Positions 32,561 through 60,902 of a stretch of 64,000 nucleotides of DNA are shown here, in pieces. The DNA comes from Symbiodinium sp. CCMP2592 (taxonomy: Eukaryota; Sar; Dinophyceae; Suessiales; Symbiodiniaceae). The translations under genes and the position numbers were made by a program. Below the pieces are notes generated by a model that worked only from the letters and a program-made list of their open reading frames with translations, had not been told where the DNA came from and ran no database searches. How positions within the stretch are numbered: the first letter of the stretch is position 1; each line of letters opens with the position of its first letter. Location: assembly GCA_905221615.1 (NCBI GenBank), contig CAJNDT010000306.1, positions 92,001 to 156,000 of the forward strand, given 5' to 3'.

Positions 32561-32562
<2 letters not shown>

Positions 32563-35142: not shown

Positions 35143-38100
35143 TCAAAGACCGTGTTTTTTTAGAATCTTGGTGACCTGTTCCTCGGGGACGAACCGCAAA
35201 AAACGTTTCGTCGCGTCATCACTCAAACCAAACAAACAGGCTGCCACATTCTTGGTGGCGTCCTGAATTGCTAGATCAGGGCCTACTTTGTCCACCGTGG
35301 GAGGAAACCCATACTTGTCTGCCACGCTCAAGAGGAAGTCATTCGTCAACCTGTACTGGAAGCGTTCTTGCAAGCGAAAACCGACTTGGACCGTCATCAA
35401 CGGTAGTGGTCGCCCCGTCCGCTTTTGGAAGCGTTCCTGCAGGGAGCGCAAATGGTTCCCCGAAATATGAAACAACACCGGGACAACAGAACACTGCAAA
35501 CCTGCCTCGGCAAGAATCACAACCGTCGATTGATCCGTTCCCAATTTTTTGCTTATTGGTCTCAAATAATCCTCGGGCAGCTGCGACTGCTCGACAAGCT
35601 ACAAATCAAAGAGTGTGATACACAGTTGCAGCTTCCCCAACATGTATCTCTGGCTATGCCAGATGTTGCAAACCGGCTCAGACCACACAGACAAATACAC
35701 ACACGGAATGTCAGGTGAGGTTTCTTTATGCGGCGAACCAACTGATGCCCAGGTCTCAGGCGACCACACATCAGAGACTTTTGACATGTCAGGTCATGGT
35801 CAAGCACGTCGAAGAAGCACAGCGAGAAGTATACCTGCCTGAACCTGTCAACCTGCCTAAACCCCCAACATGGCCTGACTACCTGCAAGGACACCGGAGG
35901 CGACGGAAAAGACATATGGACTCATGCATTGACTGTTTCCGAACCTATACCACGGCTACGGGAGAACGACTGGGTGGGGTTCTCGGTTTAGCCCCATGTT
36001 ATGTCCATTGAAGCGCAACCAAGAGAGTAATATCCAGGAAAACCAATGTACAGCGAAGATGGTATACGATGTCACAAACGGCAGGTACACACGGTTGATC
36101 AGACCGTGCTTCACCAGGGTATCCAGAGTGTCTTCGTTGGTGGCAGACTCGGGACCCTGCTGCCACCCCCTGCTGCATGTCGATTACACATAAATCAGTG
36201 CAGAACGTGAGGTGAATGCCCTTGGACACAGGGTTGTCACACACACACACACTCAGATAAGCCATCCTCCGCGAGAAGGTAACGCAACGCGCACAAAGCT
36301 TCACTACGTCTGATGCAACGATCAGCATCCTGTCTTATCAAAGGTGTTGCCATAACACAAAGCAATAGATTACGAATGTCGACCATAACTACGTGGTCCG
36401 AGTTCAAAAAGATCACAAGCCATATACTTCCTTGCAACATTGCAGGTACATGCCGAGGCGTCCCTCAGCACTTCACCCTTGCTCACTAGCTGCGTTGGAC
36501 GCAGTCATGAGCAGGGGCTGCGCCCCCCCTGCACGAAACTATGTACAACTTTCAGCTTCGAACTGGTGCAATAACTGGAGCCGCTACCCCATGATCATGA
36601 AAGTCCGCGCTGTTGAGTGGTGCATCAAGCAAATTCACTTCTTTTTTGCCATGACCAACCGCAAAACACCTTCCGTGCCATCGAGAAAGTGATTTACTTC
36701 CTTGTTTGCATGTGTCTATGGAACGGGCTTCCTCCGACATGGATCTGCTAATTAGATGTCTTGCAGCTGATTCGCACCGCACTGCTGTCACATCGGATCT
36801 TGTTTTGTGGTGACTTTGTTGCCACTCTGCTGCTTTGTCCTATATCTCAAGGCTACACACACACACACACACACACACGCCCTGTTCTGGAACTGGGGGC
36901 CAACATCTACGCACTGGATTTTTTACTGTCTTGCATCAACTGCGTCACTACTGTAACGGATGGAGAAGAGCCCGAGAAGGGTCGGGATACTCCAGACACC
37001 GCCAAGTAGGTTTAGCCTTCGAGAGCATGCGATCACAAATAAGTTTGAGGAGTTGACTACTAGCCAAACTGGACATATATGTGAAACAAGCGCTCAATGT
37101 CTTCTGCAACATGTTCAAATGGAAACGTGTGCTGTGGAATGTAGAATCAAAGATGCTCGGCTGAGGAAGCTCGAGAGCATGTGGGATTTGCATCCGGCAG
37201 ACATTGGCAACCGAAATTGCCAGGCATGTTTTGGCATCCTGAAGCGGGCACTTCTGTGAGCCACATCGACATTGAATCCCCAAAAGATGGTTGTCATCTA
37301 CAACTTCGATTTCCACCGGGGCCTGATACAAGTCCAGATCGCACAATGCTCGTAACGCACTGGTACGGCGAAGCTCTTGAGCGAACATGATAAATCTGTT
37401 GTCGACATAACGCCGGGCAAAAAATGACCACCTGTTGTTAGTAAGAAATGCCGAGATACACTGCTGCCATTGATGAAGTTCTTGCATCATAACCGTAGTG
37501 CTGCTGATAATCGGCGAAATCTGGTTACCAATAGTGGAGCCTCTAACCTGCGAGAACACCGTGCCGAGAGCGACAAACATGTTTGCTTTGAAAGACAACT
37601 CAACAATCTGAAACAGTTGTTGAATGTTGACCTGCTTGGCACTGATCTTGCCTTTAAACACTTGGCCCGGAAATTGCTGTTCATGGAGCGTCACTGAAAA
37701 GGTATGCCTGTGATCACAACGAATTGCCTGCATGTAACGCTCAAGTACCTCGCGAACCGAATGAAGGATTCTGTCTTGTGGTATGCTTGTGTAGAAGCCA
37801 ACCAAATCGTCGTTCACAAAGGTCAAGGCCTGGTCAACCGGGGCCTCGCGAAAAAAACGACGAAGATCATGAAAGGCTGACACCAAATTGCCATCGAAAG
37901 AATCTGGAAAAATCAGTTTGGTTACCCTAGCGAGAATAAGTGCGGCCGCTTTCAAACCATTGCCAATCGGCGACTTGCTGTGTGCAAAAATAGGCATGGC
38001 GGTAGTCCATGCCTTCTTCTGTTTTGGCAGCACATAAGCAAACGGCAAAGGTCGTTTGTACTGCCAGGCCCAAGGTAGATCACGTTGGAGGTTGGCAGGA

Positions 38101-44100: not shown

Positions 44101-44971
44101 TGCACACACACACACACACACGTACCAGCAAATCACCAACCAACCAACCAACCAAGCAACCAAGCAACCAAGCAACCAAGCAACCAACCGAGCCACCAAG
44201 CAACCAACCGAGCCACCAAGCAACCAATCAACCAAGCAACCAACTAACAAAACAACAAAACCAAGAACCCAGTCAACCAATCAACCCACTAACCACGGCA
44301 GCTCGCTGAAAAGGCATCTCGATCAGTTTGTAGATCTCTGGGTGGACATATTACTCCTCGGATAGGATCCAACAATCTCTCGAACAGCACCTGGCGCAAT
44401 AGGGATACTGAACGAAGCAGTAAAGACTCAGTGTCGCACGCAGCTTCAAGCCCGTATCGTCTTCAAGCTTCTTGAGCAATCGGTCCAAATACTTTTCCGT
44501 GGAGGGCGTTAGCAAATTCGTTTCATCTACGACAAAGAGGGGCGATCCATCCTCTTCTGCTGTTGCTGCTTCCACCTGCAGCGACGAGAAATGCTCACTT
44601 GTCTTCCCTTTGGCAAAATGCGGCCAAAGGACTCCCATTTCGGCCACAACACCGAAAGCCATCCACGTCCGTCTGCCACGTCCTGGACTATGACCGGGTG
44701 CCATGACTGAACATCGCTACGAAAAAACACGTGACGTGGACTGCTCCCCGCACGGACTGCTGGGAGAATGCACCGCATCCGTCCTGGAAAAGCACCCGGC
44801 AGCGCAAAGCCTGGAAGCCAAAACATTCACTTGTTTGAGCTGGTCTGGAGCGGCATTATGGCGCACGGCGCGCTCTCTCTTTCTGCTCCCCAAGTTACCA
44901 TCACCCAGGCCGCGTGGCCAAGCGAGAACTGCCACTGCTAGCAAGGCTGCACTTCGGACGCGGGCCACCAT
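35143..44971 (-). CDS. TLP18.3/Psb32-like thylakoid TPM-domain protein, split by a retroelement
   Basis: The 5' part (44971-44439) begins with a signal peptide (VRSAALLAVAVLAW) and a basic transit region. A twin-arginine hydrophobic stretch (RGRRTWMAFGVVAEMGVLW) then suggests thylakoid-lumen delivery. The TPM domain starts FVVDETNLLTPSTEKYLDRL and reaches LEDDTGLKLR. The 3' part (about 35600-35143) reads YLRPISKKLGTDQSTVVI, then RLQERFQYRLTNDFLLSVAD, then GPDLAIQDATKNVAACLFGL and a stop. This resembles the C-terminal half of algal Psb32-like proteins, implicated in photosystem II repair. Between them lie about 8.8 kb, nearly all a Penelope-like element (36247-44122), so the element appears to occupy an intron. 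A TAG lies in frame between the presequence and the twin-arginine part (about 44718), implying a small intron, an error or decay. Join of the two halves is inferred. Confidence 0.6.
35601..36246. other. intron remnant left of the retroelement
   Basis: This is the part of the presumed host intron between the terminal TPM exon and the left terminal repeat of the element. I see no exon in it. Confidence 0.4.
36247..36878 (-). repeat. downstream pseudo-LTR of the Penelope-like element
   Basis: Starts acacactcagataagcc and ends in (CA)n. It matches 43652-44122 throughout, except for about 155 extra bases here (about 36566-36725). Its minus strand has a short frame (36440-36237) whose peptide (QDADRCIRRSEALCALRYLL) is conserved in the other copy with about nine substitutions. 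It begins only about 70 bp after the RT frame ends. Confidence 0.8.
36948..38369 (-). CDS. Penelope-like reverse transcriptase
   Basis: A 473-codon frame. RT motif A is at residues about 186-197 (NDDLVGFYTSIP), the 'fingers-palm' B motif at 276-286 (RGSTIGNQISP), motif C at 319-325 (RRYVDNR) and the D/E region at 360-365 (HLLGIQ). FYTSIP is close to the LFTNIP/LYTNIP of Penelope-like RTs, and the order and spacing are right. Motif C has Asp-Asn instead of Asp-Asp, one base away from the catalytic pair, so this copy is probably inactive or belongs to a variant family. The frame starts abruptly: its true upstream continuation is in another frame, joined at a T/A homopolymer near 38380. It ends just before the terminal repeat. 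Confidence 0.75.
   Translation of the reverse strand: MQSCDSFVRAHWQQHLQATQGSITFDDVQHLRKLFSNLVVFGQDHQPDHVVIVCPMSFWKMVHGTFFDQTVYTNTGLTAQQAHDSVCSNIPANLQRDLPWAWQYKRPLPFAYVLPKQKKAWTTAMPIFAHSKSPIGNGLKAAALILARVTKLIFPDSFDGNLVSAFHDLRRFFREAPVDQALTFVNDDLVGFYTSIPQDRILHSVREVLERYMQAIRCDHRHTFSVTLHEQQFPGQVFKGKISAKQVNIQQLFQIVELSFKANMFVALGTVFSQVRGSTIGNQISPIISSTTVMMQELHQWQQCISAFLTNNRWSFFARRYVDNRFIMFAQELRRTSALRALCDLDLYQAPVEIEVVDDNHLLGIQCRCGSQKCPLQDAKTCLAISVANVCRMQIPHALELPQPSIFDSTFHSTRFHLNMLQKTLSACFTYMSSLASSQLLKLICDRMLSKAKPTWRCLEYPDPSRALLHPLQ
38371..38930 (-). pseudogene. RT N-terminal linker region, frame-shifted
   Basis: Minus-strand coding sequence continues in two other frames between the GIY-YIG-like part and the RT. 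One (about 38930-38715) includes ELCRIFKFRNLVVPTKNK, another (38722-38390) includes CSCQQLLKRSKCAAVDTIDG and QFSASSQMWPSLEWFIKQ. Penelope-like elements have a conserved linker before the RT, consistent with this. Two frame changes (near 38715 and 38380) break it. Confidence 0.5.
38918..39770 (-). pseudogene. GIY-YIG-like endonuclease region, broken by a 10-bp duplication
   Basis: The frame 39770-39345 contains EYVVYVCF, then KGFYVGSP, then ILSRIESRVR. These correspond to the GIY strand, the YIG strand and the catalytic Arg of a GIY-YIG nuclease; the His of the 'R-x-x-x-H' helix is Arg here. The conserved downstream Glu would be in KAELALHYW, in the next frame (39364-38918). The junction is an exact tandem duplication of aacactgccc (39350-39369), which shifts the frame by one; without it the two frames would be continuous. 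The rest of the second frame (SFCKSAVDARVSELLL...) resembles the linker after the nuclease. Confidence 0.55.
39795..41113 (-). CDS. Penelope-like element, upstream ORF(s): low-complexity and helical protein
   Basis: Minus-strand frames 41113-40388, 40508-40053 and 39995-39795 appear to be one coding region with frame changes. It starts MSDRWPSWNSGNSDWQQGW, a Trp/Gln/Ser/Asn-rich stretch seen in many dinoflagellate retroelement proteins. A helical segment follows (FQIAQQKVKSFQHELQQVKH) and then a basic, nuclear-signal-like PEPKRRRLVGK. The last part has a SAP-like helix (LVAKGEQTE equivalent, here LASKGEQTELMKIIL), possibly DNA-binding. No enzyme motif. Role in the element unknown. Confidence 0.45.
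41338..43474 (-). CDS. Penelope-like element, 5' ORFs of unknown function
   Basis: Three minus-strand frames: 43474-42917 (185 codons), 42728-41898 (276 codons) and 41790-41338 (150 codons). The middle one has a Pro/Thr/Ala-rich centre (TARPRASAPTPPIQP) and a helical C-terminal half (WFACLQSLQAESTLPHH). The last contains WCFRTDDAVIYNFHLVYD. They follow the upstream terminal repeat directly and precede the low-complexity ORF, so they fit an ORF1-like position. No family recognised; frames may be broken pieces of one protein. Confidence 0.4.
43652..44122 (-). repeat. upstream pseudo-LTR of the Penelope-like element
   Basis: Matches 36247-36878 from acacactcagataagcc to (CA)n, with scattered substitutions and a deletion of about 155 bp after the string cttcgaactgg. 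The minus-strand peptide frame (43842-43561) extends beyond the repeat into the element interior. Confidence 0.8.
44123..44350. repeat. (CAAC)n/(CAAG)n low-complexity tract
   Basis: From about 44138 to 44290 the sequence is built of accaaccaaccaag-type tetramers with agccacc interruptions. A similar tract occurs at 54.3-54.55 kb inside the LTR unit. It lies immediately outside the Penelope-like element, within the presumed host intron. Confidence 0.8.
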
Positions 44972-47187: not shown

Positions 47188-47228
47188 ACTACTACTACTA
47201 CTACTACTACTACGACTACTACTACCAC
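47188..47228. repeat. (CTA)n tract abutting the LTR unit
   Basis: Thirteen or so CTA/CGA units directly touch the left end of the 11.2-kb LTR unit. The right end of the unit touches a (TAG)n tract at 58430, the reverse complement, so the unit appears to sit inside or between trinucleotide repeats. Confidence 0.85.
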
Positions 47229-47671
47229 TGCGTGGGGATTTGTTGCTGATGATGTCCTTGTTCGCTCACCCCACCGAGCCTATCAATAGCTGGTTGCCCT
47301 CTCAACAGACTGTCAAGTATGCTCCACGCTCTCCACACTTCAGATAGGTATCCCTGGCAGGCAGACTCGGTACTCGCTTGTTTTCTCGTTCGAGATGCGC
47401 GACGAGACGTCTATGCACGGGATGGCTCTGATCCTCTTGGGTACACACGAAAGGCTACAAGCTTTGGTTAGCTTGTGGCATTAGTTGCTTGAGCCAAAGT
47501 TGCGTTGGCGGAAAGTAAAGTACTCACGCTGTGCCATGGTCCGTGGACGAGTGTGTCGGGTCAGGGTTCGCAAGACGATACCCTGCCCTCTGTACACGAC
47601 GAATCATGCTACTGCTCACAGCTCTGATAACGACACCATAGAATTGGACTGGGCATCGAGGTCCGTTCGCA
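47229..47671 (-). repeat. downstream LTR-like repeat
   Basis: Shares with 57966-58429, in order: gctcaccccaccgagc, ccctc(t)caacagact, gggatggctct, gccaaagttgc, and acaccatagaa with ttggact and a ccgttcgca end. Divergence is high with many small indels. Confidence 0.65.
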
Positions 47672-47677
47672 CCCCCC
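47672..47677 (-). other. G-tract (polypurine-tract-like) before the downstream LTR
   Basis: Six C on the plus strand, thus GGGGGG then TG on the minus strand, immediately upstream of the LTR start. This is the position of the plus-strand primer in LTR elements, though shorter than typical. Confidence 0.4.
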
Positions 47678-47913
47678 ATGAGTTGTGCCTCCGCCACTGC
47701 TCACCCGGAAGATGACGCGATTGGAAAGGAATAGAAAATTATCCGCCGCAAGTTTGAAATGTTTGGATATGAGCCGTTCATCCCAATTAGCAACGATGTG
47801 ACACTCATCTACGTCAGTCACGAGCCCCCGAAATGACATGAGACAATCAGGCGTCACCAAAGAAAAGCTGGCCGTGAGTGAAGATCACTCTCAAAGTAAA
47901 GCTCCATCAAAGG

Positions 47914-48456
47914 TCATGCGTTGTCCCTGTACAAGCGCCGAGTGAGTGCAGGATCATCACGTTCCCACGATCGAAGGTTCTCCTCTGGATTCTTGGACTT
48001 ACCTTTACCCTTACCTTTTTCATCATGGTAGGTATTGGTATTCCATCCTCGACGGTAATCTCGGTCGTGTGCTGGAGCCTTGGGAGCTGCCTTTGGAGCT
48101 GCAACCCATTCGCGCTGTTCAGGCGTGAGGTTGGCATCCATGATAGACGTTCGTCCACCAGGTAGATACTCAGCTGCCGAAATATGATGTAATGCAGGAC
48201 GTGCTTGGTGCACCTGCGCGTTTCTCTCTTCATCCAGCTTGCGCTTCGTGACCTTGTCGACAAACTTGGCCGGAACCTGGATGTTGTGATCGATGATCAC
48301 CGCAATCGTCTGCGCAGAGTTGTCCTTCAGACTTGACATGAGGATGACTCCCACAGGATCGATGTACAGGAAATCAATTGGCCCAGTTGGTGTTGGTCTG
48401 ATCAGAGAATCAGAGAGAACGTGGTATGTCCCGTGATCTTTGGGATAATCTCGCAA
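47914..48456 (-). CDS. LTR unit: C-terminal basic protein part
   Basis: A 180-codon frame. The N-terminal part (GPIDFLYIDPVGVILMSSLK) is ordered, the middle is charged (KRKLDEERNAQVHQARPA) and the C-terminal part is Lys/Gly-rich (DEKGKGKGKSKNPEENLRSW). GKGKGK tails are common in RNA-binding parts of dinoflagellate retroelement proteins. It partly overlaps, in another frame, the end of the preceding acidic frame. It is probably the continuation of that protein after a frameshift. No enzyme recognised. Confidence 0.45.
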   Translation of the reverse strand: MRDYPKDHGTYHVLSDSLIRPTPTGPIDFLYIDPVGVILMSSLKDNSAQTIAVIIDHNIQVPAKFVDKVTKRKLDEERNAQVHQARPALHHISAAEYLPGGRTSIMDANLTPEQREWVAAPKAAPKAPAHDRDYRRGWNTNTYHDEKGKGKGKSKNPEENLRSWERDDPALTRRLYRDNA

Positions 48457-49260
48457 AGTACATTCAAGCAGCAGTGCAAAACTTTCGGGCCCTGATCCCT
48501 GTTGCTGTAGGTCTGGGGATTGAAAATGTCTCGACTGTATCCCATCTGGATCGATCCTCGAATCAAAGCAGATACTGTTTGGCTCCCCCGGAACTTCTTC
48601 AGAAGGTACTGGCTGTTGGGGTCCTCAGGGTCCTTCATTGTAGTCCACCTTGACAAAGTTGGCCAAGCCTTGTGAATGGATCTGGCCAAGAAGTATGCCA
48701 TGTGGGAAAACGCAAGCCTGCTCGCGTCGATGCAACACCCTTGACCTTTGTTGGGATAATAAGGAGGCTGAATTGCTGCGCGCGCGAGTTCGAGCTCCGG
48801 GTCGATTGCCAATGCACGTCCGCGGAGAAGAAAGGGTCGACGCTCTTCAGCCACATTTTCAGGAACGTTGTCGTCGAAACCTTCCTCGTCTTCTACCTCG
48901 ACCATCTCTGCGTCAGGTTCGGATTCTCCTTCTGATGCATGCATTTCAGCTTCAACTTCGGGCATCTCCATCTTGGGCTCGGCAACCGTTGCCGCGGCTT
49001 CCTCCTGTTCATCTTCTTCGGCGTCGACGGGGACTGCTGCCGTTGCTGCTTCCATCGTTTGGGCGATAGCGTTGCTACGGATCTCCGAAGGAGTCTCCTT
49101 TTGCGCCGGTCTCTGATACCGTCCGCACGAAATGAACAATGACCTACATACCGTACATCTGGTGAAGAAGGCTGGTACAACGTTGTAGCCAGCACGGCAG
49201 GTTCTCATCCTCTTTCCATCCGAATCCCGTCGTAGGTCTTCGGGTCGCGAGTTCTTGATG
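48402..49260 (-). CDS. LTR unit: acidic linker protein part
   Basis: The credible portion of a longer open frame. It has an acidic stretch (DAEEDEQEEAAATVAEPK, then EVEDEEGFDDNVPENVAEER) followed by RPFLLRGRALAIDPELELAR and ends in YPNKGQGCC. Upstream of about 49260 the frame is a shadow of the KptA-like region and its first 130 codons should be ignored. It probably continues the KptA-like protein toward the basic tail. A Cys pair (RCTVCRSLFISCG) just before the acidic part could bind a metal, but that is only a guess. Confidence 0.4.
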
Positions 49261-49383
49261 AGGAACATGATTCCTTCCCGAATGTAATGACGACGTCGAG
49301 TATCTTCATGGTGAAGACCGATGGATCCTGCAAGCGAATGAAGTAAGTGCTGATTGCTTGCATTGTGGGGTCCTGACGGCATT

Positions 49384-50116
49384 TCACAGGGTAACTCCAT
49401 GATGCGACCAGGTCCTGACTCGATCGAAATCTTGCAACAATGGTGAAGCTCTGAACTCCAGCACCAGTTCGTCTTCCAACCTTTCATCGAAGATCTTCTC
49501 CACCAAGTCAAAGGAATAGTTGATCCTGTCGTTGGGAACGCAAAACCAAACCTCCTTAACAAAGGAGAAAGGTATCGGACGGCCAACAATGATCACTCCG
49601 CTGTCTGTTATCCGTCCTCCTTCACGAAGAAGATCTGCAGAGGGCATGTACATGACTGCAAGAGGCATCTTCTTGTTGCGATAGCCGTGAACCCTTGTCT
49701 TCGTAGTAACGTTCTTCGGATCAAACGGTGCGAAAATGCCAAAGTAGCCGTGAAGACGTCCGCTTTCCCATGCTCGATTGTTGTGTACAGGATCCCCAAA
49801 AGGGCGTTCTGCACCGGGTAGAACGCCTGTCCTTGTGATGGAGTCCAGGCAAGCGGTCGCATGGAATGCACCACCAAGCTGGTTCAGCAAACTCATCGAA
49901 GCGGTTCCTTCACCCTCGCTTCAGAAACTGTAGTCTGATCTTGGCACTCCGATCCTTGGTGGCGTTGGCCATGTTGCCTTGGAAAAGCAACTGCAAGCTT
50001 TCATTGTAAATCCTCTCCCTGTGGGCAGGATCGGTGTGCGAAGCGACATCAGTAACTCCGCGACCAGCGTGTGTCCACAAAGCTTCAATCTTCATGAGGT
50101 CGTCGATCAGCAGCAC
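49384..50116 (-). CDS. KptA/Tpt1-like (RNA 2'-phosphotransferase, ART fold) domain in the LTR unit
   Basis: The frame 49896-49384 (170 codons) reads GGAFHATACLDSITRTGVLP, later SGRLHGYFGIFAPFD, then KKMPLAVMYMPSADLLREGG and ITDSGVIIVGRPIPFSFVKE. This follows the C-terminal half of KptA/Tpt1 enzymes: the H-x-T motif with 'I-x-x-x-G(L/V)', an Arg/His strand, a substrate-facing 'P-(L/V)-x-V' strand, and 'I-x-x-(S/N)GVI(I/L)-x-x-x-(I)P'. Tpt1 removes the splice-junction 2'-phosphate from tRNA using NAD+. The N-terminal lobe may lie in the preceding frame (50116-49910), with AKIRLQFLKR, one base out of phase near a GGG. Whether it is active, and on what RNA, cannot be told. It is embedded between Gag-side and tail proteins of the LTR unit. 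Confidence 0.5.
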
Positions 50117-51191
50117 TAGCCCAATCTAGCCCACCACCATCCCTGCAAGCCACCAGGGTAGGGACTAGCTGGAGTAGTCGTACTAGCCGAGTGACGACAA
50201 CGAGCTCGCAACACAGCAGCGCGCGACAACTCTCCTTTTTCACGGATGTGGCATATAAATCCCATTAGCCTGGAGATTGTCGCTAGCCTCAGGCTAGCCC
50301 TCCCCAGGGTGGGAAGGGTGGGTACTTCAAAATTACCCCCCCTTGTAAAAAGTTTCAGTAGCAATACCGTACAATACTTTGTACACAGCTTGACGGGTTG
50401 ACAGTAATGCACAGCACACAATCGAATCACTTGCAATCCAGATCCAGTCGGTCTCAATCTTTTCTTGCGGACTGGAGCCAAATGTCAATGTGTCCACAAT
50501 TGGGCTTTAGCACTGTAGAGGCCTGGAATGATGCTATGCCATCTAACACGGTCCCTTGACAATGCATCTGAATGCAGTTGTCACATCTGGCATCGTTTCA
50601 ATTTTCAGAATAATGCAACAACGGAAACAATGTACAGCGAAGATGAAGACAAAGAATGCAATCGACGTGTCCAATCTGAAGGTGCAGTCTGCTACAGCAA
50701 CCCAATGTGTCTTTGACAAGTTCAATTCCACTGACAGTTGCAAATCCCTCACGTCAGAATACCTCTGAACAAGAGCTATACAATGCAGTCAGCTTTCGGC
50801 AATCTAACGCTGGAATTTTTTCACAGCAATCCCCTCAGTCTGCATAGAACCAATGAAAGACTGACTGTACAATTGCTCTCAGCAATCAGATGTCACCGTT
50901 GACAATGTTGAAGAAATGGCACGGGTCTGAATGCGCCAATGAAGCAGCATTCCACGACCAAAATGGCCAATCAGCGAAGCTCACGGCAATCGCTTTCAAT
51001 CTCCTTTTTAGCTGTCAATGTCCATCGTCTGGGGATCCCAATTTGACCAATTTCGGCTTGGCGCAGCCGTCTTCTCCACTCGGACAATCGAGCCACTCGG
51101 AAAGACAATCGCTGAGCTGACTCTGGCATCGAGTCAATTTCCATCGTTGACCTGCCAGTGTCAATCTTGTCTTTGTCAATCTTCAAGTCAA
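50117..51191. other. non-coding gap inside the LTR unit
   Basis: About 1.1 kb with no credible frame on the minus strand between two coding parts. It has a tagt/ctag-rich stretch at 50100-50215 and a CCCC run at 50330. It could be a large intron, a nested insertion or decayed coding sequence; where RT would be expected, none is visible. Confidence 0.4.
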
Positions 51192-52355
51192 TCACCTCAT
51201 ACTCGTGAAGCTGACACGCGTGGAGGCTTTTGTTGGCACATTCATATGCGTAGCCAGACTCCACAGCGCACTCCATGCCTGACGTCTGAATATTGCAGGC
51301 AAATGGAATCCTCCTTCTTGTTGCCCTTTGCAGACCGCCTTCACTTGATGCTTGAGAAACTCGTAGGTCGTCGTGTCAGTATCTGGCATGACTTCGGTGG
51401 TCCACTTGTAGAAGGGTACGCCCGTGTAGTGGTCGGCCCATGAGACATAGCTGTCAAGCACGTGCAGGCATACGCTCAAGGCTTGGAACGAATTGACGGC
51501 GAACGCCAACAGATGTCCCATCCCCTGGGGCATGCTACGCAGCATCAATGCCAACTGGTGAATGTTGATAGGCATATCATTCGCGCTTGCTCCCACGGTG
51601 CACTCCTGATTGCATTACGCGCGCCATCCGTATCCTGTCTGCTTTGCAAACATATACATCAACTTGCACACTCTTCGGAGCGTTGACTCTGACAAAAGAT
51701 CGGACTGATCTTCCAATGTCCCCGAGCTCGGCAGCTTCTTGTAATAGTCCTGGTTCAGCGTGTACCATTGTGCTGTTCTAGTATCAGTCACAGCTGCGTA
51801 CGGCGTCTCCACGGTGTTGATCAGCACGGCAAGGTTATAGAAATTCTCAGAGTTGATAATAATCCTCGTAATGGTATTCAGCTCGAATCGAATCTCGCCT
51901 TTGTGACTTTCCAGCTCCGACACAGCATGAGGAAAATCGTGGCGAACCACATCGATATCCAACGAGTGTTTCAGAATGTAGCTGAACGACGACGCCTTGT
52001 CGTGGACCAAATGCTTGATCGCTCCACCCACTTTCAGTACGGCATTGAGTACTTCACCATAAGGCTTGTCCAGGTACTCCTCCGGTGCTGCCAAAGAACA
52101 GGCCCTCAGAGTTTCCCTAACTCGTACAGCAATATCGCAGATAAACATCAGCAGAAGTGGCCTCGCTCGGAAAGCTGCCCATGCTCGGATGAGATCATTG
52201 TCGACCACTTTATCCCGGACGATCCTCGTAGGCAACGGAGCATTGCGTGCGGTATCTTCGGAATACATCTTCAGGAACGTGTCATACTTCTTGAAGATCC
52301 TCAGGACTTGGTCCTTCGAAAACACCTCTTCCAGAGCGATCCGCTGAAAAGTCAC
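51192..52355 (-). CDS. LTR unit: helical protein of unknown function
   Basis: Two frames, 52355-51615 (246 codons) and 51596-51192 (134 codons), probably form one protein. The first is rich in alternating hydrophobic and charged residues (VFSKDQVLRIFKKYDTFLKM, LIRAWAAFRARPLLLMFICD). The second includes MPQGMGHLLAFAVNSFQALS. No RT (FYTSIP, YxDD), integrase (HHCC, DDE) or protease (DTG/DSG) motif is present, although this is where pol would be in a Copia element. I do not recognise it. Confidence 0.45.
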
Positions 52356-52496
52356 TCATACGCATTGTGACTCTGGTCCATGGCTCAGGGGAAAGGATAC
52401 GACCTCCAAAAGAGAGAAGTAGCCTACCCCGACGCGGCTTCACGGTTCCGTGTCCTCCAAAATAGATACACTTCCCCGATCCGCCCCGATCGCACC

Positions 52497-54208
52497 TTAG
52501 TTGTTCCTTAGTTGGGGCTGATTATTAGCCCCATAGTCAGTACCATGGTACCACCAGCTTTCCCATGCACAGTCCTCAGTATCATGAGTGACTCTTCCGA
52601 CCTTGGCATGAGCATGAACAAGGCTGCGAACATAATCGGCAAATGACCTCCATGTCACTTCAATGCATTCAAGCAAACTGCACTTCAACTTGCGTTTGAC
52701 ACACTCCGAGAAGTTCATCTCAAGACGCTCGACATCAGACATGTTCGAGAAAACAATCCTACGTCCTACTAGTTCGCCAGTAGCTCCAACATGATCAGCG
52801 ACCTTAGCCTTCCTCACCTTGCCGCTCGAAACGAGAGCATGCAATTCCGGCCACGACCAACATGAACATGAACATGAAGATGGCACGTCAAGCGAAAAAT
52901 AGACATGGGAAAATTCCGCACACTTCTTCAGCAGGCGTTTGAGAGACTTCAAAACACTTCGAAACCTTTTGTACTTTCCACCAGGACGATTTTCACCCCC
53001 CACACAAGACCCTTCGCTGTCTCCAGGCCCAGCACCTGATCGAAAGAGAGATGCCACAAAGAGCACAGGTGTGCGCAGGTCGTTCTGGCACGATTTCTTG
53101 ATCATGCTGATCAAGTTGTCCTCGTCAGCACGGGAGCTCACAAGCTCCTCACACACAATACGAGCGCCTCCTTTGGCACATTTGGGCCCGGCAAAACCGT
53201 TGCCCGCACAGCTAAAGTCGACGACCACGTGGTCGGCTTTGCCCGTTTTAGAGCCTGAAGTCATGGCGACCAACCTTCCATTGCCCGAAGCTTGAAAGTT
53301 CAAGGATTTGAGCAATCTCCTTGAGATCTGGCTAGTCAACTCACACTTATCAGCACGATTCTTCGCTTCGTCGTCACTAAGATGCCCATATGGTAACTTG
53401 CACTTGTCCGACGACTTAGGTTGCAGCATGACGTCTGCGGCAAAGTACTCCCGCCACCCTTGCAACACCCAACATGCGGCTTTCCTTCCGTGAAAGATAG
53501 AGCACATCGTTGCCCGTGGGTGCATCCATCGATCTTGATGCTCTTCCACATCTCTTCCTCGTGCAGTATTTCGTACTGCTTGGTGTATTGAACGGGAACG
53601 TAAGGAGGCACTTCAATGATGACTTGTGCTCCCCACTTAGCAGCTCTGCGCGCAATTCTTTGGACGACCTCCCCCCATGGGTAATCCGTCCGCGATTTGG
53701 CCTTTTCCGGGTTTGCAATGATTTTGCGACTTAGCTACGAATTCTTCCCTAGCACCCCTGCACCAATGAAGATCACGGCATTCGGGCTCCTCTGTCTCGT
53801 CTGTGCGAGATCAAACAGATATGAGCACATAGCATCATCGGCTTCTCTGCCCATACAGAGTACGTTCACATGTGCACTAGGATCATAGTGCGCGCCCGGG
53901 GCATGTTGCTTGATGCAATCTTTGCCTGGAGCATACTCATTCCAAGAGTTGTCTTCATCGACACCGATCAACGTCCATACTGTCACGGCTTTCGGAGCGT
54001 CTTTGATGACGATGCGGTATTCGATTCTGCTGTGTGGATGCCTGCACGCGTGAACTAATCCTCCGTCATAGTCGTAGAACTGTATGGTCAGTCCACTTCT
54101 GTCGTTCACCGCGAACTCGACTACGTGTGGCACAGTCGCTTCGCCCTGCCCTTGCAATTCTCTGCTCTTTTGAGCCATATCTTCCCACAACATAGCTGTC
54201 CCTCCCAA
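52497..54208 (-). CDS. LTR unit: Cys-rich protein, possible Rossmann-like part, unknown role
   Basis: Read across three frames (54208-53735, 53611-53400, then about 53440-52497) this looks like one protein. The first part ends NAVIFIGAGVLG. The second has YVPVQYTKQYEILHEEEMWK and a Cys cluster (GKPHVGCCKGGGSTL, then SCCNL) that could bind metal. The third has VVVDFSCAGNGFAGPKCAKG, LRTPVLFVASLFRSGAGPGD, GGENRPGGKYKRFRSV and VYFSLDVPSSCSCSCWSWPE. The D-x-x-AGNG string and the following strands could be a nucleotide- or SAM-binding Rossmann motif, as in methyltransferase-like domains I recall from dinoflagellate retroelements. That is tentative. The last frame is long (350 codons, first about 40 a shadow), which suggests constraint. 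Confidence 0.45.
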
Positions 54209-54587
54209 ATCGCAGTATCAGCTGGAAGACGGAGGAAATGGAAGTCCGAGGACATGGGGAGATGTTGGCATAAGCAGACTCGAGCTGAATACGGCTGCCA
54301 TGTCATGTTTCAAGCTAACATGCACCCAAGCAACGAGCAACCAACCAACCAAGCGACCGACACATGCAAGCTAGCAACGGTGAGACATGTTTCAAGCTGA
54401 CATATATGCACCCAACCGACCGACACGGTGAGATCCAGCAGCCAAGCGACAACCAAGTAGGCACCCAAGCAACGAGCAACCAACCAACCAACCAACCTAC
54501 CAACCAACCAACCAAGCGACCGACACACGCAAGCTAGCAACGGTGAGACATGTTGCAAGCTAGCAACGGTGAGACATGTTTCGCGCA
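54209..54587. repeat. (CAAC)n tract with duplicated CTAGCAACGGTGAGACATGTT units, intron-like
   Basis: Between the Gag frame and the Cys-rich frame lie accaaccaacc-type runs and at least three copies of a unit containing gcaagctagcaacggtgag and acatgttt. The layout suggests an intron or insertion that has grown by tandem duplication. It interrupts what would be a continuous polyprotein. Confidence 0.6.
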
Positions 54588-55856
54588 CTAGCTGCTCCTA
54601 TACCCCACCATCATCCCCAGAACTCCTCCAGGACGATAGCAGTAGAAAGTAGCGGGCGAGCTAGCCGAGCGAGAGTGACTTTTCGCCTTACCTTGTGGTA
54701 GCACAGGAGCTGCATTGTCAGGCTGCGGACCTCCTTTGATCTTCGCAGTTGGTGCTGCATTGGGCTTGTTGTTGTTGTCAGGGGTTTTCGCTGATGCAGC
54801 AAGCATGTCCTTGCCTTCCAAAATCTGGCGAAGTCCAACCTGTGTCTGAGCGAGATTTGCTTGTTCACGTCTTCGCATGATGGTACGGTCGATAATTCTG
54901 ATGAGATTCTCATACGACTGATTTTCATGGTTGTAGGGCAAGTGGTCATAGTGCATGCCCAAATCCATCTTCATAGCGGCGGAATCCTTGATCTTGTGGT
55001 ACAAGCAGTCGCGAAGAGCCGTCTTGGAAGGTATATCCTCCGGTCTCATTCGTCCAAGAACTTCTAGCCACGTCTGTTTGAACGTGTGAAGTTTGTTGTC
55101 ACCCTGGTACTGGAGCTTCACCAAGTAGTCCAAAGTGATGATCATGTCCAACCGATCATGAGTTCTAAAGCTCTCAAAATTCTCAAACATCATTGCGATG
55201 ATCTGTCGACCTTTGATGATCTTCCCGCTTGGCGCACGAATGTATTCATTTGCCTTGCGGTTCACTTCCAAGTAGAGATCAGCTGCTTTGTCGCCACCGG
55301 CACGTAGCATTGCCACCATGGCAACACCCAATTTGACGTCGATGCTCTTGAACTTCTTGAGTCCTGAGTCATTTAGAGCTTCGATGTCTGGGAACGGACT
55401 AAAGGCTGGTTCCAGCCAAAACATCCAATCCTCATGGTTGGGGTCAGCGGACGCGCTGAGGACATTGGCGGTACATGCTGATCGCCAATTGTCCAAGTGT
55501 GTGAGAGTAGGCCAAGGAGGTACACTGACTTTGTCCGCTTCTCTCCTAGAAATCCTAACCTCAGTGACCTCAGGATCAGCGTCTCCGTCAGGATCATGTC
55601 GATCAGGTGGATCCGGACCGGGTTTTCCCCCACCTTTCTTCTTGTCATCTCCGTCATCCGGATCAGGTGGATCAGGAGGATCACATCCGGCACCGGCATC
55701 ATCCCCTGGATCATCGTCTTCACACTCGCCGTCGTCATCATCACCGTCATCGTCTCCTTCAGTCTCTTCTAACGCTTCGGCAACTACCTTCCATTCGTCA
55801 CGATCAGCCCTGAGACGTTGCTCGGCTTTCTGAGCTTTAAGGACTTCGTTCTGCAA
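54588..55856 (-). CDS. dinoflagellate-type retroelement Gag
   Basis: A 422-codon frame. Residues about 1-95 are a short coiled coil (KAQKAEQRLRADRDEWKVVA) and a very acidic Asp/Pro-rich linker. From about 105 comes SVPPWPTLTHLDNWRSACTA, then DVKLGVAMVAMLRAGGDKAA, then GKIIKGRQIIAMMFENFESF, then WLEVLGRMRPEDIPSKTALR, and finally a basic Pro/Asn-rich tail. The 'P-x-(W/F)P-x-(L/V)T-x-x-x-x-W' start, the 'G-x-x-I-x-G-x-(Q/V)-(I/L)' helix and 'F-x-x-x-W-x-x-VL' are what I recall of Gag proteins of Copia-type elements in Symbiodiniaceae. No zinc knuckle is visible. The last 19 or so codons run into the repeat tract and are probably read-through. Confidence 0.65.
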   Translation of the reverse strand: MQNEVLKAQKAEQRLRADRDEWKVVAEALEETEGDDDGDDDDGECEDDDPGDDAGAGCDPPDPPDPDDGDDKKKGGGKPGPDPPDRHDPDGDADPEVTEVRISRREADKVSVPPWPTLTHLDNWRSACTANVLSASADPNHEDWMFWLEPAFSPFPDIEALNDSGLKKFKSIDVKLGVAMVAMLRAGGDKAADLYLEVNRKANEYIRAPSGKIIKGRQIIAMMFENFESFRTHDRLDMIITLDYLVKLQYQGDNKLHTFKQTWLEVLGRMRPEDIPSKTALRDCLYHKIKDSAAMKMDLGMHYDHLPYNHENQSYENLIRIIDRTIMRRREQANLAQTQVGLRQILEGKDMLAASAKTPDNNNKPNAAPTAKIKGGPQPDNAAPVLPQGKAKSHSRSASSPATFYCYRPGGVLGMMVGYRSS

Positions 55857-55926
55857 CTCGGCAATCTTTTCTTCGTACTTCTCTGCAAACTAGAAAAAAG
55901 AGCTGCCGTTTCCTCGCTTCATGGAT

Positions 55927-57904
55927 TCAATCGTCAAAAGCTACGGGCTTAGGCCTCAAATCTGGATGGAGACGTAAATCTTTACTAGATGCAGGTGCAC
56001 CATCATGTTGGACAGGTTTGGACGAACTGGTTGATGAAGTGGAATTTCTTCCCCTCATGCCGAGATCTTCCAGAAAATCTCGTAGCTGTCGATCATGTAC
56101 GGTTGTTGCATCGGCTTGCCTCTGGGTAGACCCGCTTGGAATGCCGAATAACGACGCTGCACTAGGCGCGGAACGCTCAAGCGCTGGGGCATTGGTACGA
56201 GGCACGTGGTGCGCAAGTACCGTGCTTTCCACCATTGGGCCTGTCCCTTGAAACAAGTTCATGTCATCCTTCCCAACTACAACCGAGTTGCCTTCGCTCG
56301 CGACTTTCATCTCCTCATCCGGTACAAGGATCTTGTCTTTGCTTTGCTCAGCGAATGTGAACTTCCCTTTGGCGACAGGACTAACCTGACTAGGAGATGG
56401 TGTTTCGGGCTTCGGGGGATCGTACCTCAACTCCTAAGGAAAATGCAGGCACGACATCCTTCCCTACAAGCTCCCAGCCCGAATCAGTAGTCCTTGAAGA
56501 GATTGGCATGCTTGGCGGGCGCAACGATCCAGCTTGCTGTGCTGAGATCCGTGCCGCATCAAGCTGACTCCGTGTTCTCGACTGAAGATCTTCTGGTGTT
56601 CTAAGAGCTCTCCTGAGTTCATTCAACTCATCATGCAATGCCGGCAAAGCCTGTCTTGCTTGATTTTCATGTTGTTGGAGCTGATTCTCAGCGTCTTGCA
56701 TTCTTCTCACAGCCATTTCACGGAATTCTTCTTCTTCACCAAGTCGTTCACGAAGTCGGTGTTGTTCATGACTCGATGCCGTCTGGTTACCGATCATGCC
56801 CTGGATTTCATCCACGACTCGTGATTCCTGGTTCTTGGCCAGGATGAATCGTTCCTGCATGGTATACATGGCTTGTTCAGAACTCGCCACATTTGATCGA
56901 AGTTGCAAGTTCTCTCTAGCTTGTTCGTGAAGTTCCTGCGTCAGGTGCTCGTACTCTCTTGCCATGAGTTCACCATCTCCTTGAGCTCGAGCTTCAAGTT
57001 GAACAACGCTGGTAGCAGCTTCACTGCGAACCGCGTGCAATTGATGAGCGAGTTCTTCGGCAATGGCATGCCTTTGGCGTTGTTGAGCCGAGTTTTGTTC
57101 GTCCATTCGAAACAACGCAACTTCATAATCACGCTTCATCTCTTGGTTGACATTGCTGATGTGCCGCAGTGGCCATACATGCATTATCACGTTGTCGTTC
57201 CAACTCTTCGACGCAAATTCCAGATCCTTCATCCTCTTGCTGCATCTCCCTGATCTTGTCCGTCAACGCCTGAACGATGCCCTCATACTTCTGAACTTCA
57301 CTTCGATAATACATCTGCTGTGCAAGGTTCGAAGCTTCAAGCTGTTCTTGCATCGTCATCTCATGATGTAATCTCGGATCATCAGCGATGGCCGGGGTCG
57401 CCACCGACGATGCATCACCTCACACCGGTATGGTCTCGAGGGTCATGTCCTCATCATCGGGGTCGTGAGGATGGTTCGCGACCATCTTCTTCCATGTAAT
57501 GGATCTTTCCCGTAGGATGTCCTAGATCGTGCTGACGAGCTTCTAGAAGACGATGGCCTTGACGCCTTGTCCATGGTTCTCACTCCTCTGTCCTTTGCCT
57601 TCGACGGGTGTCCTTGCCACCTGAAATCCTGAAAACCTGACTCGACACGTCGATCAACTGCCTTTGCTGTCCTCGATCCTGCAGATGTTGGACGAGAAGG
57701 CGTGGATGCTCTTGAAGCAGCCTTTGCTTTTGCTTTGGGAACTGCCTTGGCGATGGCGAGCGCAGAAGGTTGACCTTTGTCATCCTCAGTGGAGCTGTCA
57801 ACGGATTGCACCACAGCGTCGTCAGCAGTTGAGTCACCAATTGCTGGCGCTGCCATCTCGGCACCGAAAGCCATTGTCGTATCTTGACTCGATCCTGAGT
57901 TCAT
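55927..57904 (-). CDS. LTR unit: N-terminal Ser/Ala-rich and coiled-coil protein
   Basis: First coding block after the upstream LTR, spread over frames 57904-57443, 57404-57129, 57232-56390 and 56430-55927. It starts MNSGSSQDTTMAFGAEMAAP, continues with an Ala/Lys/Ser-rich part (AKAVPKAKAKAASRASTPS), then a long heptad-rich coiled coil (ERQRDNACMATAAH...; QNSAQQRQRHAIAEELAHQL; REMAVRRMQDAENQLQQHEN). The last part has SGWELVGKDVVPAFSL and TQRQADATTVHDRQLRDFLE. No enzyme motif. It may be a scaffold or Gag-assembly region; the changes of frame are small overlaps that could be introns or errors. Confidence 0.5.
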
Positions 57905-57953
57905 CGTGGTCGTGGTAGATCAAGTAGTCTTTGCTGTTGGTAGGCAAAGCCTA

Positions 57954-57965
57954 CGGCTGATAACC
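57954..57965 (-). other. primer-binding-site-like sequence
   Basis: On the minus strand ggttatcagcc directly follows the CGCA end of the upstream LTR. The Ty1/Copia consensus complementary to initiator Met tRNA is tggtatcagagc, so the match is good but not exact. A small hairpin (gtaggctttgcctac) follows. Confidence 0.4.
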
Positions 57966-58428
57966 TGCGCGGGGATTTGGTCTTGATGATGTTCCTTGTC
58001 GCTCACCCCACCGAGCTAATGAGTAAGTGCGCGGCTGCCCTCAACAGACTCGATACGCTATCACCTTCACTCCCACGTATAAGCACTCCTCCCAGGGCAG
58101 GCAGATCGCTTGTTTTCCACCTTCGCAGTAAGCGATGGATCGTCTGTGCTCGGGATGGCTCTGTTCCTCAGAAAAGTCACAGAAGACGATAAGCTGTTTT
58201 AAGCTATCGGCAATGCTTTCTAGAGCTTGTGCTCTTTCTTGGGCCAAAGTTGCATGGGCGGCATATGATAATGATGGTGCGGTTCTGTGGTATGCGTAGC
58301 ATGCCCACAAATCAACACCTAGAGATGGAGTACGTGTTGCGTGCCTCCACTCTTGACCTATACAAGGCCTCACTCATAGCTCTTGTCGTGACACCATAGA
58401 ACTTGACTAGGCATCGCAGTCCGTTCGC

Positions 58429-58429
<1 letters not shown>
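57966..58429 (-). repeat. upstream LTR-like repeat
   Basis: Counterpart of 47229-47671. On the minus strand it starts TGCGAACGGACTGCGATGCC and ends AATCCCCGCGCA. No TATA box can be claimed. Confidence 0.65.
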
Positions 58430-58475
<46 letters not shown>

Positions 58476-58647: not shown

Positions 58648-58770
58648 CTACACTGCACCACTGCCAAGTACTGCACTACTGGTCATTACTGCACCACCTG
58701 CACTAGTGCAGTACTTGGCAGTAGTGCAGTGATGACCAGTAGTGCAGTAATTGGCAGTAATGCAGCAATT
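58648..58770. repeat. large hairpin made from minisatellite units
   Basis: ccactgccaagtactgcact followed by actggtcattactgcac forms the left arm; the right arm starts agtgcagtacttggcagtag and continues to gatgaccagt. The arms are nearly perfect over about 40 bp. A second copy lies at 59730-59840. Confidence 0.75.
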
Positions 58771-58807
58771 GGCAGTAGTGCAGCAATTGGCAGTAGTGCA
58801 ATAGTGA

Positions 58808-59080
58808 CCAGTAGTGCAACACTTCCACAACACTTCCACAACACTTCCACAACTTCCACAACACTTCCGCAACACTTCCACAACACTTCCACAACACGTC
58901 CACAACACTTCCACAACACTTCCGCAATACCTCCACAACACCTCCACAACACTTCCACAACACTTCCACAATACCTCCACAACACCTCCACAACACTTCC
59001 ACAACACTTCCACAACACGTCCACAACACCTCCACAACACCTCCACAACACTTCCACAACACTTCCACAACACCTCCACA
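58808..59080. repeat. 12-bp minisatellite (CTTCCACAACAC)n, block 1
   Basis: About 23 units of cttccacaacac with cctcc/cgtcc/ttccgc variants. Because 12 is a multiple of three it stays open in every frame, giving false open frames. Confidence 0.9.
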
Positions 59081-59269
59081 GCAATTAGCAGTAGTGCAGT
59101 AATTGGTAGTACAGCAATATGCAGTAGTGCAGTAATTGGCAGTAGTGCAGTAATGACCAGTAATGCAGTGATTGGCAGTAGTGCAGCAATTGGCAGTACT
59201 CTCGACGCAGGGTGCCCAGAGCTTTTGGTCACCCCAAAATCTCGATTCCGGGTGGGGAAAGGGCCCAAA

Positions 59270-59346
59270 CGACACCTCTTGGGATTGCACCAGGGGCCTT
59301 TTCCCTACCTCTCATGCAGAGCTTCCGCCTGCCCATTAGGCTATGG
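59270..59346 (-). repeat. tRNA-like (SINE head) copy 1
   Basis: On the minus strand TAGCCTAATGGGCAGGC forms an A-box with a four-pair D-stem (GCCT/AGGC), and GGTGCAATCCC is a degraded B-box. The flanks (body ending in gcgtcgagagtactgcc) are shared with copies 2 and 3. Anticodon arm does not fold well, so it is not a functional tRNA. Confidence 0.45.
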
Positions 59347-59544
59347 AAGGATAGTTCTTATGAAAGGCGGCCATCCAATCTGGAGTTTTGAAGAAACTCC
59401 AGGCGCCGTCATTTGGTGCAGTAATTGGCAGCAATGCAGCAATTGGCAGTAGTGCAGCAATTGGCAGTACTCTCGACGCAGGGTGCCCAGAGCTTTTGGT
59501 CAGCCCAAAATCTCGATTCCGGGTGGGGAAAGGGCCCAAACGAC

Positions 59545-59616
59545 ACCCCTTGGGATTGGACCAGGGGCCTTTTCCCTACCTCTCATGCAAAGCTTCCGCC
59601 TGCCCATTAGGCTATG
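59545..59616 (-). repeat. tRNA-like (SINE head) copy 2
   Basis: Nearly identical to copy 1 including about 100 bp on each side; B-box reads GGTCCAATCCC. Copies 1 and 2 with flanks form a large duplication (59190-59420 and 59460-59690). Confidence 0.45.
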
Positions 59617-59904
59617 GAAAGCTAGTTCTGATGAAAGGCGGCCATCCAATCTGGAGTTTTGAAGAAACTCCAGGCGTCATTTGGGCAGTAATTGGCAGTA
59701 GTGCAGTAATGACCAGTCCTGGTCATTGCTGCACTACTGCCAATGAGTGCACTACTGCCAATTACTGCACTACTGGTCATTACTGCACTACCTGCACAAG
59801 TGCAGTACTTGGCAGTAGTGCAGTGATGACCAGTAGTGCAGTAAATGGCAGTAATGCAGCAATTGGCAGTAGTGCAGCAATTGGCAGTGGTGCAATAATG
59901 ACCA

Positions 59905-60065
59905 GTAGTGCAACACTTCCACAACACTTCCACAACTTCCACAACACCTCCGCAACACTTCCACAACACTTCCACAACACTTCCACAACACTTCCACAAC
60001 ACGTCCACAACACTTCCACAACACTTCCACAACACTTCCACAACACTTCCACAACACCTCCACAG
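59905..60065. repeat. 12-bp minisatellite (CTTCCACAACAC)n, block 2
   Basis: A second array of the same unit as 58808-59080, shorter and embedded in the same order of neighbours, showing the whole cassette was duplicated. Confidence 0.9.
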
Positions 60066-60074
60066 CAATTAGCA

Positions 60075-60690
60075 GTAGTGCAGTAATTGGTAGTACAGCC
60101 ATTGGCAGTAGTGCAGTAATTGGCAGTGCAGTACTTGGCAGGAGTGCAGTGATGACCAGTAGTGCAGTAATTGGCACTAATTCAGCAATTGGCAGTAGTG
60201 CAGCAATGACCAGTAGTGCAGTAATTGGCAGTAGCGCACTAGTTGGCAGTAATGCAGTAATGACCAGTATTGCAGTCATTGGCCGTAGTGCAGCAATTGG
60301 CAGTAGTGCAGTGATGACCAGTAGTGCAGTAATTGGCAGTAGTGCAGTAATGACCAGTAATGCAGTAATTGGCAGTAGTGCAGCAAATGGCAGTAGTGCA
60401 GCAATTGGCAGTAGTGCAGTGATGACCAGTAGTGCAGTAATTGGCAGTAGCGCAGTAATGACCAGTAGTGCAGTAATTGGCAGTAGTGCAGTATTGACTA
60501 GTAGTGCGGTAATTGGCAGTAGTGCAGCAATTGGCAGCAGTGTGGTAATTGGCAGTAGTGCACTAATTGGCAGTAGTGCAGCAATTACCAGTAGTGCAAT
60601 ACTTGGCAGGAGTGCAGTGAAGACCAGTAGTGCAGTAATTGGCAGTAATGCAGCAATTGGCAGTAGTGCAGCAATTGGCAGTACTCTCGA
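60075..60690. repeat. 18-bp minisatellite (CAGTAGTGCAGTAATTGG)n
   Basis: About 33 units of cagtagtgcagtaattgg and the variant cagtagtgcagtaatgac alternate over 600 bp. The same units also fill 58735-58810, 59088-59195 and 59680-59900. Confidence 0.9.
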
Positions 60691-60756
60691 CGCAGGGTGC
60701 CCAGAGCTTTTGGTCACCCCAAAATCTCGATTCCGGGTGGGGAAAGGGCCCAAACG

Positions 60757-60831
60757 ACACCCCTGGGGATTGAACCAGGGGCCTTTTCCCTGCCTCACAC
60801 GCAAAGCCTCCGCCTGCCCATTAGGCTACAG
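60757..60831 (-). repeat. tRNA-like (SINE head) copy 3, best conserved
   Basis: A-box TAGCCTAATGGGCAGGC and a near-consensus B-box GGTTCAATCCC, about 40 bases apart as in tRNA genes. The T-arm pairs CCCCTGG with CCAGGGG. The downstream body (tcgtttgggccctttccccac) is shared with copies 1 and 2 and ends at the 18-bp minisatellite, which could be the SINE tail. Confidence 0.55.
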
Positions 60832-60902
60832 AGAGGCAGGCGATCCTCGAAGGCTGCTTTTCGGTAGCCAGACAGCCAGTCAAGGTCGCTGCACGTGCCT
60901 TA

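Follow-up and report, generated by a model that had tools for sequence, protein, structure and literature searches.

What is an 11.2-kb unit that carries the long terminal repeats (LTRs) and the Gag of a retrotransposon and shows no reverse transcriptase (RT)? The question is raised by positions 47229–58429 of a 64,000-nucleotide stretch of Symbiodinium sp. CCMP2592 DNA (C306:92001–156000, here called the window), taken from an assembly of 1,098,105,373 bases in 5,383 contigs. The unit runs along the minus strand, with LTRs at both ends and TG...CA termini, and the original prediction had suggested that it may be either a giant non-autonomous element or a domesticated gene array. Comparison with other copies in the genome leaves us with little doubt that it is instead a broken copy of a giant (~19–20 kb), many-copy, copia-like LTR retrotransposon family; this one copy lost its Pol region together with a further 3.7 kb, gained filler and is probably recombinant. 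At the level of sequence, the family properties behind this reading are established: a common block order, Pol domains in sister copies, a match to the Tpt1 family, purifying selection and, in two long copies, near-identical LTRs.

The ends of the unit are marked by the following features:

57966–58429, minus strand: 5' LTR of 464 bp, TGCGAACGG...CGCGCA
57957–57965, minus strand: GGTTATCAG, resembling a primer-binding site (PBS), directly inside the 5' LTR and identical in sister copies
47672–47677, minus strand: G-tract GGGGGG, resembling a polypurine tract (PPT), abutting the 3' LTR and also found at C4971, C5137 and C240
47229–47671, minus strand: 3' LTR of 443 bp, of a subfamily other than that of the 5' LTR

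Both LTRs start with TGCGAACGG and end in CGCA, and the direct repeats with TG...CA ends that had been noticed by eye are borne out by local alignment, which scores 113 where the best of 200 dinucleotide shuffles reaches 27; the identity of the pair is 71–84% over 386–422 ungapped columns, a range set by the scoring scheme. Taken alone, GGTTATCAG is weak, with 567 of 42,656 window 16-mers scoring equally well; the same bases also adjoin the 5' LTR in sister copies, and the claim that primer site and G-tract lie in their proper places stands, both being shared by sisters.

A probe from the N-terminal part of the Gag side has at least 40 matches in the genome (40 scored of 839 candidates), namely the window and 39 others at 78–86%. 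The window unit was aligned to ten sister regions of up to 20 kb each, which cover the 11 best Gag-probe matches after the window; its block order recurs in them over spans of up to 19–20 kb, so that dispersed copies with the same order, a check set beforehand, do exist. The sister regions are often broken by insertions or losses, with an inversion at C5151 and, at C1710, a match to the 5' end only. Our reference is the 19.8-kb copy at C4971 (near half L024, far half L025), whose 5' and 3' LTRs, at element positions 161–639 and 19447–19922, show 98.7% identity (469 columns, 3 gaps); the LTR pair of the C5110 copy is 98.2% identical. A C4971 frame of 1,113 amino acids joins the Gag C-terminus to a CCCH zinc finger (1.9e-4, above the Pfam cutoff) and a protease match (2.1e-4), and by motif reading it would also hold an integrase; a further frame holds an RT with YVDD (RVT_2, E = 0.014), and protease, then integrase, ahead of RT is the order read by motif. 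Among 101 open reading frames (ORFs) from sister copies, Pfam at E ≤0.05 found RVT_2 in 5 (best 3e-8) and gag-asp_proteas in 4 (best 4.6e-5). The C4971 Pol stretch is partly aligned by seven of the nine other sister regions (C5151, C62, C5110, C5152, C5205, C5373 and C247); the C5137 and C1710 regions gave no alignment to it. RT-bearing relatives, which the original prediction had asked for, do exist, and with the same order and LTRs as the window unit; its assignment to a giant non-autonomous type of element is therefore not supported.

Two sister regions show arrangements of their own. At C5137 (L026–L027) stand two tandem derivatives of ~4 kb with a common middle LTR and LTRs 97–99% identical; both join unit positions 2624 and 9961, and they are likely a real short non-autonomous form. 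At C5373, an insertion inside the copy (L030:3391–9804) holds an open frame of ~2,138 codons.

Why, then, does the window copy have no RT? Minus-strand ORFs of at least 150 residues in the unit total 2,636 residues, against a maximum of 506 in 300 block shuffles, and they fall into the pieces below, given with the ratio of non-synonymous to synonymous substitution rates (dN/dS) where available:

57446–57919, minus strand: N-terminal piece of the Gag-side frame; dN/dS 0.29–0.68, the top values from off-frame hits
57132–57419, minus strand: continuation, in another frame, of the coiled-coil-like part
56393–57262, minus strand: coiled-coil-like part of the Gag-side frame; dN/dS 0.07–0.46, the higher values being pieces with stops
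55930–56433, minus strand: Ser/Pro-rich part of the Gag-side frame; dN/dS 0.21–0.53
54591–55889, minus strand: Gag-like ORF of 433 residues; dN/dS 0.06–0.19; its DNA alignment to C4971 stops at 54676
54190–54675, minus strand: filler of 486 bp, (AACC)n-rich, in the place of 6.0 kb of C4971
53738–54217, minus strand: orfA piece of the 3' accessory region; dN/dS 0.05–0.13
52500–53612, minus strand: Cys-rich piece of the 3' accessory region; dN/dS 0.17–0.59
51195–52355, minus strand: helical piece of the 3' accessory region, in two frames; dN/dS 0.07–0.17 where dS is unsaturated
50124–51222, minus strand: second filler, in the place of 3.7 kb of C4971 (12876–16594)
49387–49920, minus strand: Tpt1/KptA-like NAD-lobe piece with FHATA and GRLH; the window copy lacks the stretches in which sister copies have their LRH and RA.SGHS parts
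48405–49592, minus strand: acidic piece with a Cys cluster, in the 3' accessory region
47917–48624, minus strand: C-terminal piece of the 3' accessory region; dN/dS 0.18–0.20 against C5137, saturated against C4971 and C5110

The Gag-like ORF is matched in sister copies, which agrees with the Gag originally assigned to the unit. Scanned with Pfam at E ≤0.1, the stop-to-stop segments of at least 50 residues in the unit (58 minus-strand and 72 plus-strand) gave no match to a family of RT, integrase, RNase H or protease, so the proposed search with profile models returned no RVT_2, rve or protease match. Pfam alone was rejected as proof of absence, since the Pol pieces of C4971 themselves gave RT at 0.014 only; this being a weak negative, the absence of RT rests also on the alignment to C4971. 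Window positions 58429–54676 align to C4971 161–3881, and the next match begins at window 54189 and C4971 9878; the window copy is accordingly without C4971 3881–9878 (6.0 kb, Pol) and 12876–16594 (3.7 kb). What the filler replaces in C4971 is the Gag zinc finger, the protease, an integrase-like part, the RT and an RNase H-like part, and the window copy has no RT because this stretch is missing there. The absence of RT therefore holds for the window copy and fails for the element type, sister copies of which have it: the missing RT is damage, not a new lifestyle. Within the second filler, 50224–50695 matches a dispersed repeat, the C5137 copy of which is split by LTR elements. Scans of viral_contigs with the window Gag, Cys-rich, KptA-like and helical pieces and the RT-like ORF described at the end found no relative, and an AlphaFold2 model of the window Gag core (mean predicted local distance difference test (pLDDT) score 41.0, mostly helical) was unfit for structure search.

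The two LTRs of the window copy point to a further event. Against 14 sister LTRs the 3' LTR is 82–88% identical with 17–47 gaps, and the 5' LTR 87–92% with 5–14 gaps. The nearest relatives of the 3' LTR among the matches listed (40 scored of 305 candidates) are at C2458 (89%) and C155 (88%); C5358:145615, an 81% relative, is placed 1.9 kb downstream of C5358:143221, which among the KptA copies scored is the nearest to that of the window (77%). Since plain ageing wears both LTRs alike and those of the window are unlike, 5' and 3' parts of different subfamilies appear to have been joined after insertion, and from these gaps and relatives the window copy is probably a recombinant of two insertions. 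An age estimate that had set the divergence of the window LTRs against the intact Gag ORF (35–79 indels expected, none seen) is superseded by this difference in subfamily.

The unit lies between (CTA)n and (TAG)n, which are inverted relative to each other, and inspection of the flanks by eye showed no target-site duplication; at C4971, GTAGT is a duplication candidate that lies within a TAG repeat. TAG/CTA trinucleotide repeats flank 4 of the 11 copies inspected, namely the window (47189–47229 and 58431–58475), C4971, C5110 and C1710, and an insertion preference is a possible explanation of such borders. Just outside the 5' LTR, past (TAG)n, CCCCACGCAG at window 58485 repeats the left LTR border (47228) in inverted form.

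The accessory half of the family is distinguished by a Tpt1/KptA-like domain. Tpt1 is a tRNA-splicing enzyme, and its bacterial relatives are of less clear purpose. From the window copy alone the domain, also part of the original prediction, is unproven: Pfam gives no PF01885 match, BLASTP of the piece against E. coli KptA no match and AlphaFold2 a mean pLDDT of 31.5, unfit for structure search, while hhalign to a profile of five bacterial KptA sequences gives 9%, a second place among 212 window ORFs, the first going to an unrelated ORF at 36369–36689 (25.5%). It is the sisters that support it. A C4971 frame matches PF01885 at 0.013; its RATSGHST and FHVTACRNLDSI align to RAVQGHST and YHGTASRFLDEI of KptA, and frames of C4971 and C5152 rank first and second of 196 ORFs against the bacterial profile. 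In proteins from further copies, PF01885 was detected at E<0.1 in 5 of 6 (none in L042), with 26.2 bits for L045 and 26.0 for L038, at the cutoff of 26, and 24.9, 17.4 and 19.1 for L049, L040 and L037 below it, covering at most profile positions 20–122 of 177. A profile of the family against that of KptA reaches 92.8%; the maximum in 20 column-shuffled controls, run on an earlier profile that held some wrong-strand frames, was 0.53%.

Across 20 loci including the window, LRH occurs in 12, RA.SGHS in 17, [FY]HxTA in 18 and GRLH in 19. The catalytic tetrad of Tpt1/KptA is Arg-His-Arg-Arg, according to passages of PMC6333775; its Arg-His is present as LRH in those 12 loci, and HxT stands in place of HGT. 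The LRH and GHS parts of C4971, at ~16.5 and ~17.0 kb, lie within stretches missing from the window, so the domain of the window copy is broken. The KptA-like protein has at least 150 genome matches including the window (150 scored of 1,020 candidates), the weakest listed at E 4.1e-64. Many of them sit in open frames of 2,509–2,515 codons (C2569, C3446 and C5195, for example), and the accessory region is therefore one large frame in such copies; at C240, on the 3' side of the copy, an accessory frame is followed by the G-tract and then the LTR.

Selection was assessed by the NG86 method. Over 18 copies of the KptA domain, the median dN/dS is 0.12 (range 0.04–0.24) in 89 usable of 153 pairs, 56 being excluded as saturated and 8 as below the dS floor. 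Between C4971 and other copies, values are 0.05–0.21 for integrase/protease and 0.05–0.40 for RT, and, on the accessory side, 0.04–0.24 for orfA, 0.22–0.39 for the Cys-rich part, 0.20–0.38 for two Cys-containing frames, 0.13–0.16 for the helical part, 0.09–0.22 and 0.19 for the N and C parts of KptA and 0.08–0.19 for the C-terminal part. Many of these values come from high dS and broken frames, and they indicate constraint rather than its exact strength. As judged from these ratios, purifying selection acts on both halves of the family element; together with the 150 or more scored places, this argues against the KptA-like part being cargo that a single copy picked up by chance.

Could the unit belong after all to a true non-autonomous subfamily, like the TR-GAG (terminal repeat with Gag) or LARD (large retrotransposon derivative) elements, which spreads without Pol by means of the Pol of full-length sisters? 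The window copy does lack Pol, and short derivatives exist in the tandem pair with the 2624/9961 junction; yet the window junctions occur in none of the ten sister regions, some of which span one side only and no genome-wide junction search having been made, and LTRs of different subfamilies are not expected from one round of retrotransposition. We regard such a subfamily as improbable, and a domesticated Gag-bearing host gene array as far more so: the long open stretches and the purifying selection would suit an array, but that selection is common to dispersed element copies, the Gag side switches frame four times in 3.3 kb, and the repeats, rather than being array spacers, are LTRs with PBS and PPT common to the sisters. 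A third alternative, compatible with a broken copy of an autonomous family, concerns the domain itself, which may quite possibly be a degenerate ADP-ribosyltransferase-fold domain devoid of 2'-phosphotransferase activity. HxT instead of HGT, PF01885 scores at or below the cutoff over part of the profile, the single match (0.013) among 101 sister ORFs and large inserts relative to bacterial KptA favour degeneration, against which stand the retention of the four motifs in 12 to 19 of 20 loci and the median dN/dS of 0.12 within the domain.

Some observations weigh against our preferred reading, that of a broken, probably recombinant copy of a copia-like family. The frame switches of the window copy could in part be sequencing errors. 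In C4971 the protease score of 22.3 is below the Pfam cutoff of 28.2 and the RNase H-like stretch is a matter of motif reading alone, and in the 101 sister ORFs SH3_retrovirus (4 ORFs, 0.0023) and rve_3 (4 ORFs, 0.013) give the integrase weak support. As for recombination, the evidence is indirect: an assembly join, or gene conversion affecting a single LTR, would leave the same picture, and the C5358 comparison covers the 3' side of that copy.

A second peculiarity of the family lies within the LTRs, which carry on their sense strand, at homologous places, a motif resembling the final 12 bases of the dinoflagellate spliced leader (DinoSL; sequence from passages of PMC2606063 and PMC8045281):

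58238–58249, minus strand: CTTTGGCCCAAG in the 5' LTR, differing at 2 of those 12 bases
47488–47499, minus strand: CTTTGGCTCAAG in the 3' LTR, differing at 1 of those 12 bases

Over 21 bases of DinoSL, the mismatches number 5 or 6. In a post hoc test, shuffled columns reached the motif jointly in 1 of 5,000 trials, in 2 of 2,000 for the 3' LTR alone and in 40 of 2,000 for the 5' LTR alone. The form with 1 mismatch is present in 12 of 14 sister LTRs, by shared descent and not independently, the other two being truncated LTRs without this region; the C240 LTR also carries an 11-base core of the motif. The motif may be what is left of a leader where R begins. Together with the type of Gag, it points to a dinoflagellate genome. 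Listings and passages from an open-licence library mention neither a leader in the LTRs of dinoflagellates nor Tpt1 in a retrotransposon.

In order, a full copy comprises an LTR, an initiator-tRNA-like primer site, Gag with its CCCH zinc finger, protease, a probable integrase, RT and an RNase H-like region; these are followed by a second region (a single frame of ~2,500 codons in many copies) with the Tpt1/KptA-like domain, the G-tract and an LTR. By analogy with its class, the family would move as other LTR retrotransposons do and supply Pol itself: its RNA would be transcribed from the LTR, packed into particles of Gag and copied from a tRNA primer by the element's RT, and the product integrated. 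The Tpt1-like domain might, at a guess, clear element RNA or the primer tRNA of 2'-phosphates that RNA ligation, or damage, has left behind. The window copy has neither Pol nor an intact domain and would be unable to perform any of these steps by itself. A combined proposal is more tentative, and we think it rather unlikely in full: that this LTR lineage encodes its own Tpt1-type 2'-phosphotransferase, which mends or unblocks its RNA or its tRNA primer, and that it is adapted to trans-splicing of the spliced leader, a leader 3' end in the LTR at the start of R letting trans-spliced RNA still make the first strand transfer.

Passages of PMC5890265 name Ty1/copia as the most abundant retrotransposons of Symbiodinium, and according to passages of PMC7245778 LTR elements are largely absent (<0.7%) from short-read Symbiodiniaceae assemblies. 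With Ty1/copia the window family shares TG...CA LTRs, an initiator-tRNA-like PBS, the order Gag-protease-integrase-RT as far as motif reading goes, the RVT_2 match and the G-tract, and it differs in its ~20-kb length, the second frame of ~2,500 codons with a Tpt1/KptA-like domain and the leader-like motif in the LTR. Like SymbioLINE-Dnmt and SymbioDIRS-Dnmt3, as described in part of PMC5890265, it is a dinoflagellate retrotransposon with a nucleic-acid-modifying enzyme as part of the family; those are LINE (long interspersed nuclear element) and DIRS elements with a DNA methyltransferase, whereas the window family is of LTR type with an RNA 2'-phosphotransferase-like domain. TR-GAG elements, as portrayed in sections of PMC8704663, resemble the window copy in having LTRs and Gag without Pol; unlike them, it shows no sign of having moved as a Pol-less unit, and its LTRs differ in subfamily. 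The family domain has in common with Tpt1/KptA (sections of PMC6333775; PF01885) the motifs LRH, RA-x-S-GHS and HxT and, in two copies, a PF01885 score at the cutoff (26.2 bits against 26 at best), and is set apart by its place within a retrotransposon frame, large inserts between motifs and the change from HGT to HxT. Cer1 of C. elegans, too, is an LTR element in a spliced-leader organism; according to passages of PMC3315495, no trans-splicing at the SL1 site was found for its 8-kb full-length RNA, whereas here the leader-like motif is within the LTR itself.

The window copy, then, shows ordinary damage in an unusual family, and the interest lies in the family's selected Tpt1/KptA-like domain and its leader-like motif. 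A selected domain of this kind, in a retrotransposon whose candidate copies exceed 1,000, would link reverse transcription with the removal of 2'-phosphates from RNA, and the motif bears on how LTR elements replicate where mRNAs receive a spliced leader.

Elsewhere in the window, a second unit at 36216–44121 has direct repeats at 36216–36874 and 43625–44121 (93% over 320 bp and 89% over 162 bp) flanking minus-strand ORFs; one of these, 36948–38390, shows by eye the RT-like motifs FYTSIP, GNQISP and YVDN, and gave no RT match in Pfam and no match in the PDB. Adjoining the LTR unit, 58654–60890 holds tandem arrays with units of 18 bp and 11 bp, as well as direct repeats of 261–300 bp. A very long (CA)n/(GT)n run occupies ~32060–32600, and an ORF of the proline racemase family lies at 17673–18857 (PF05544, 1.7e-69).

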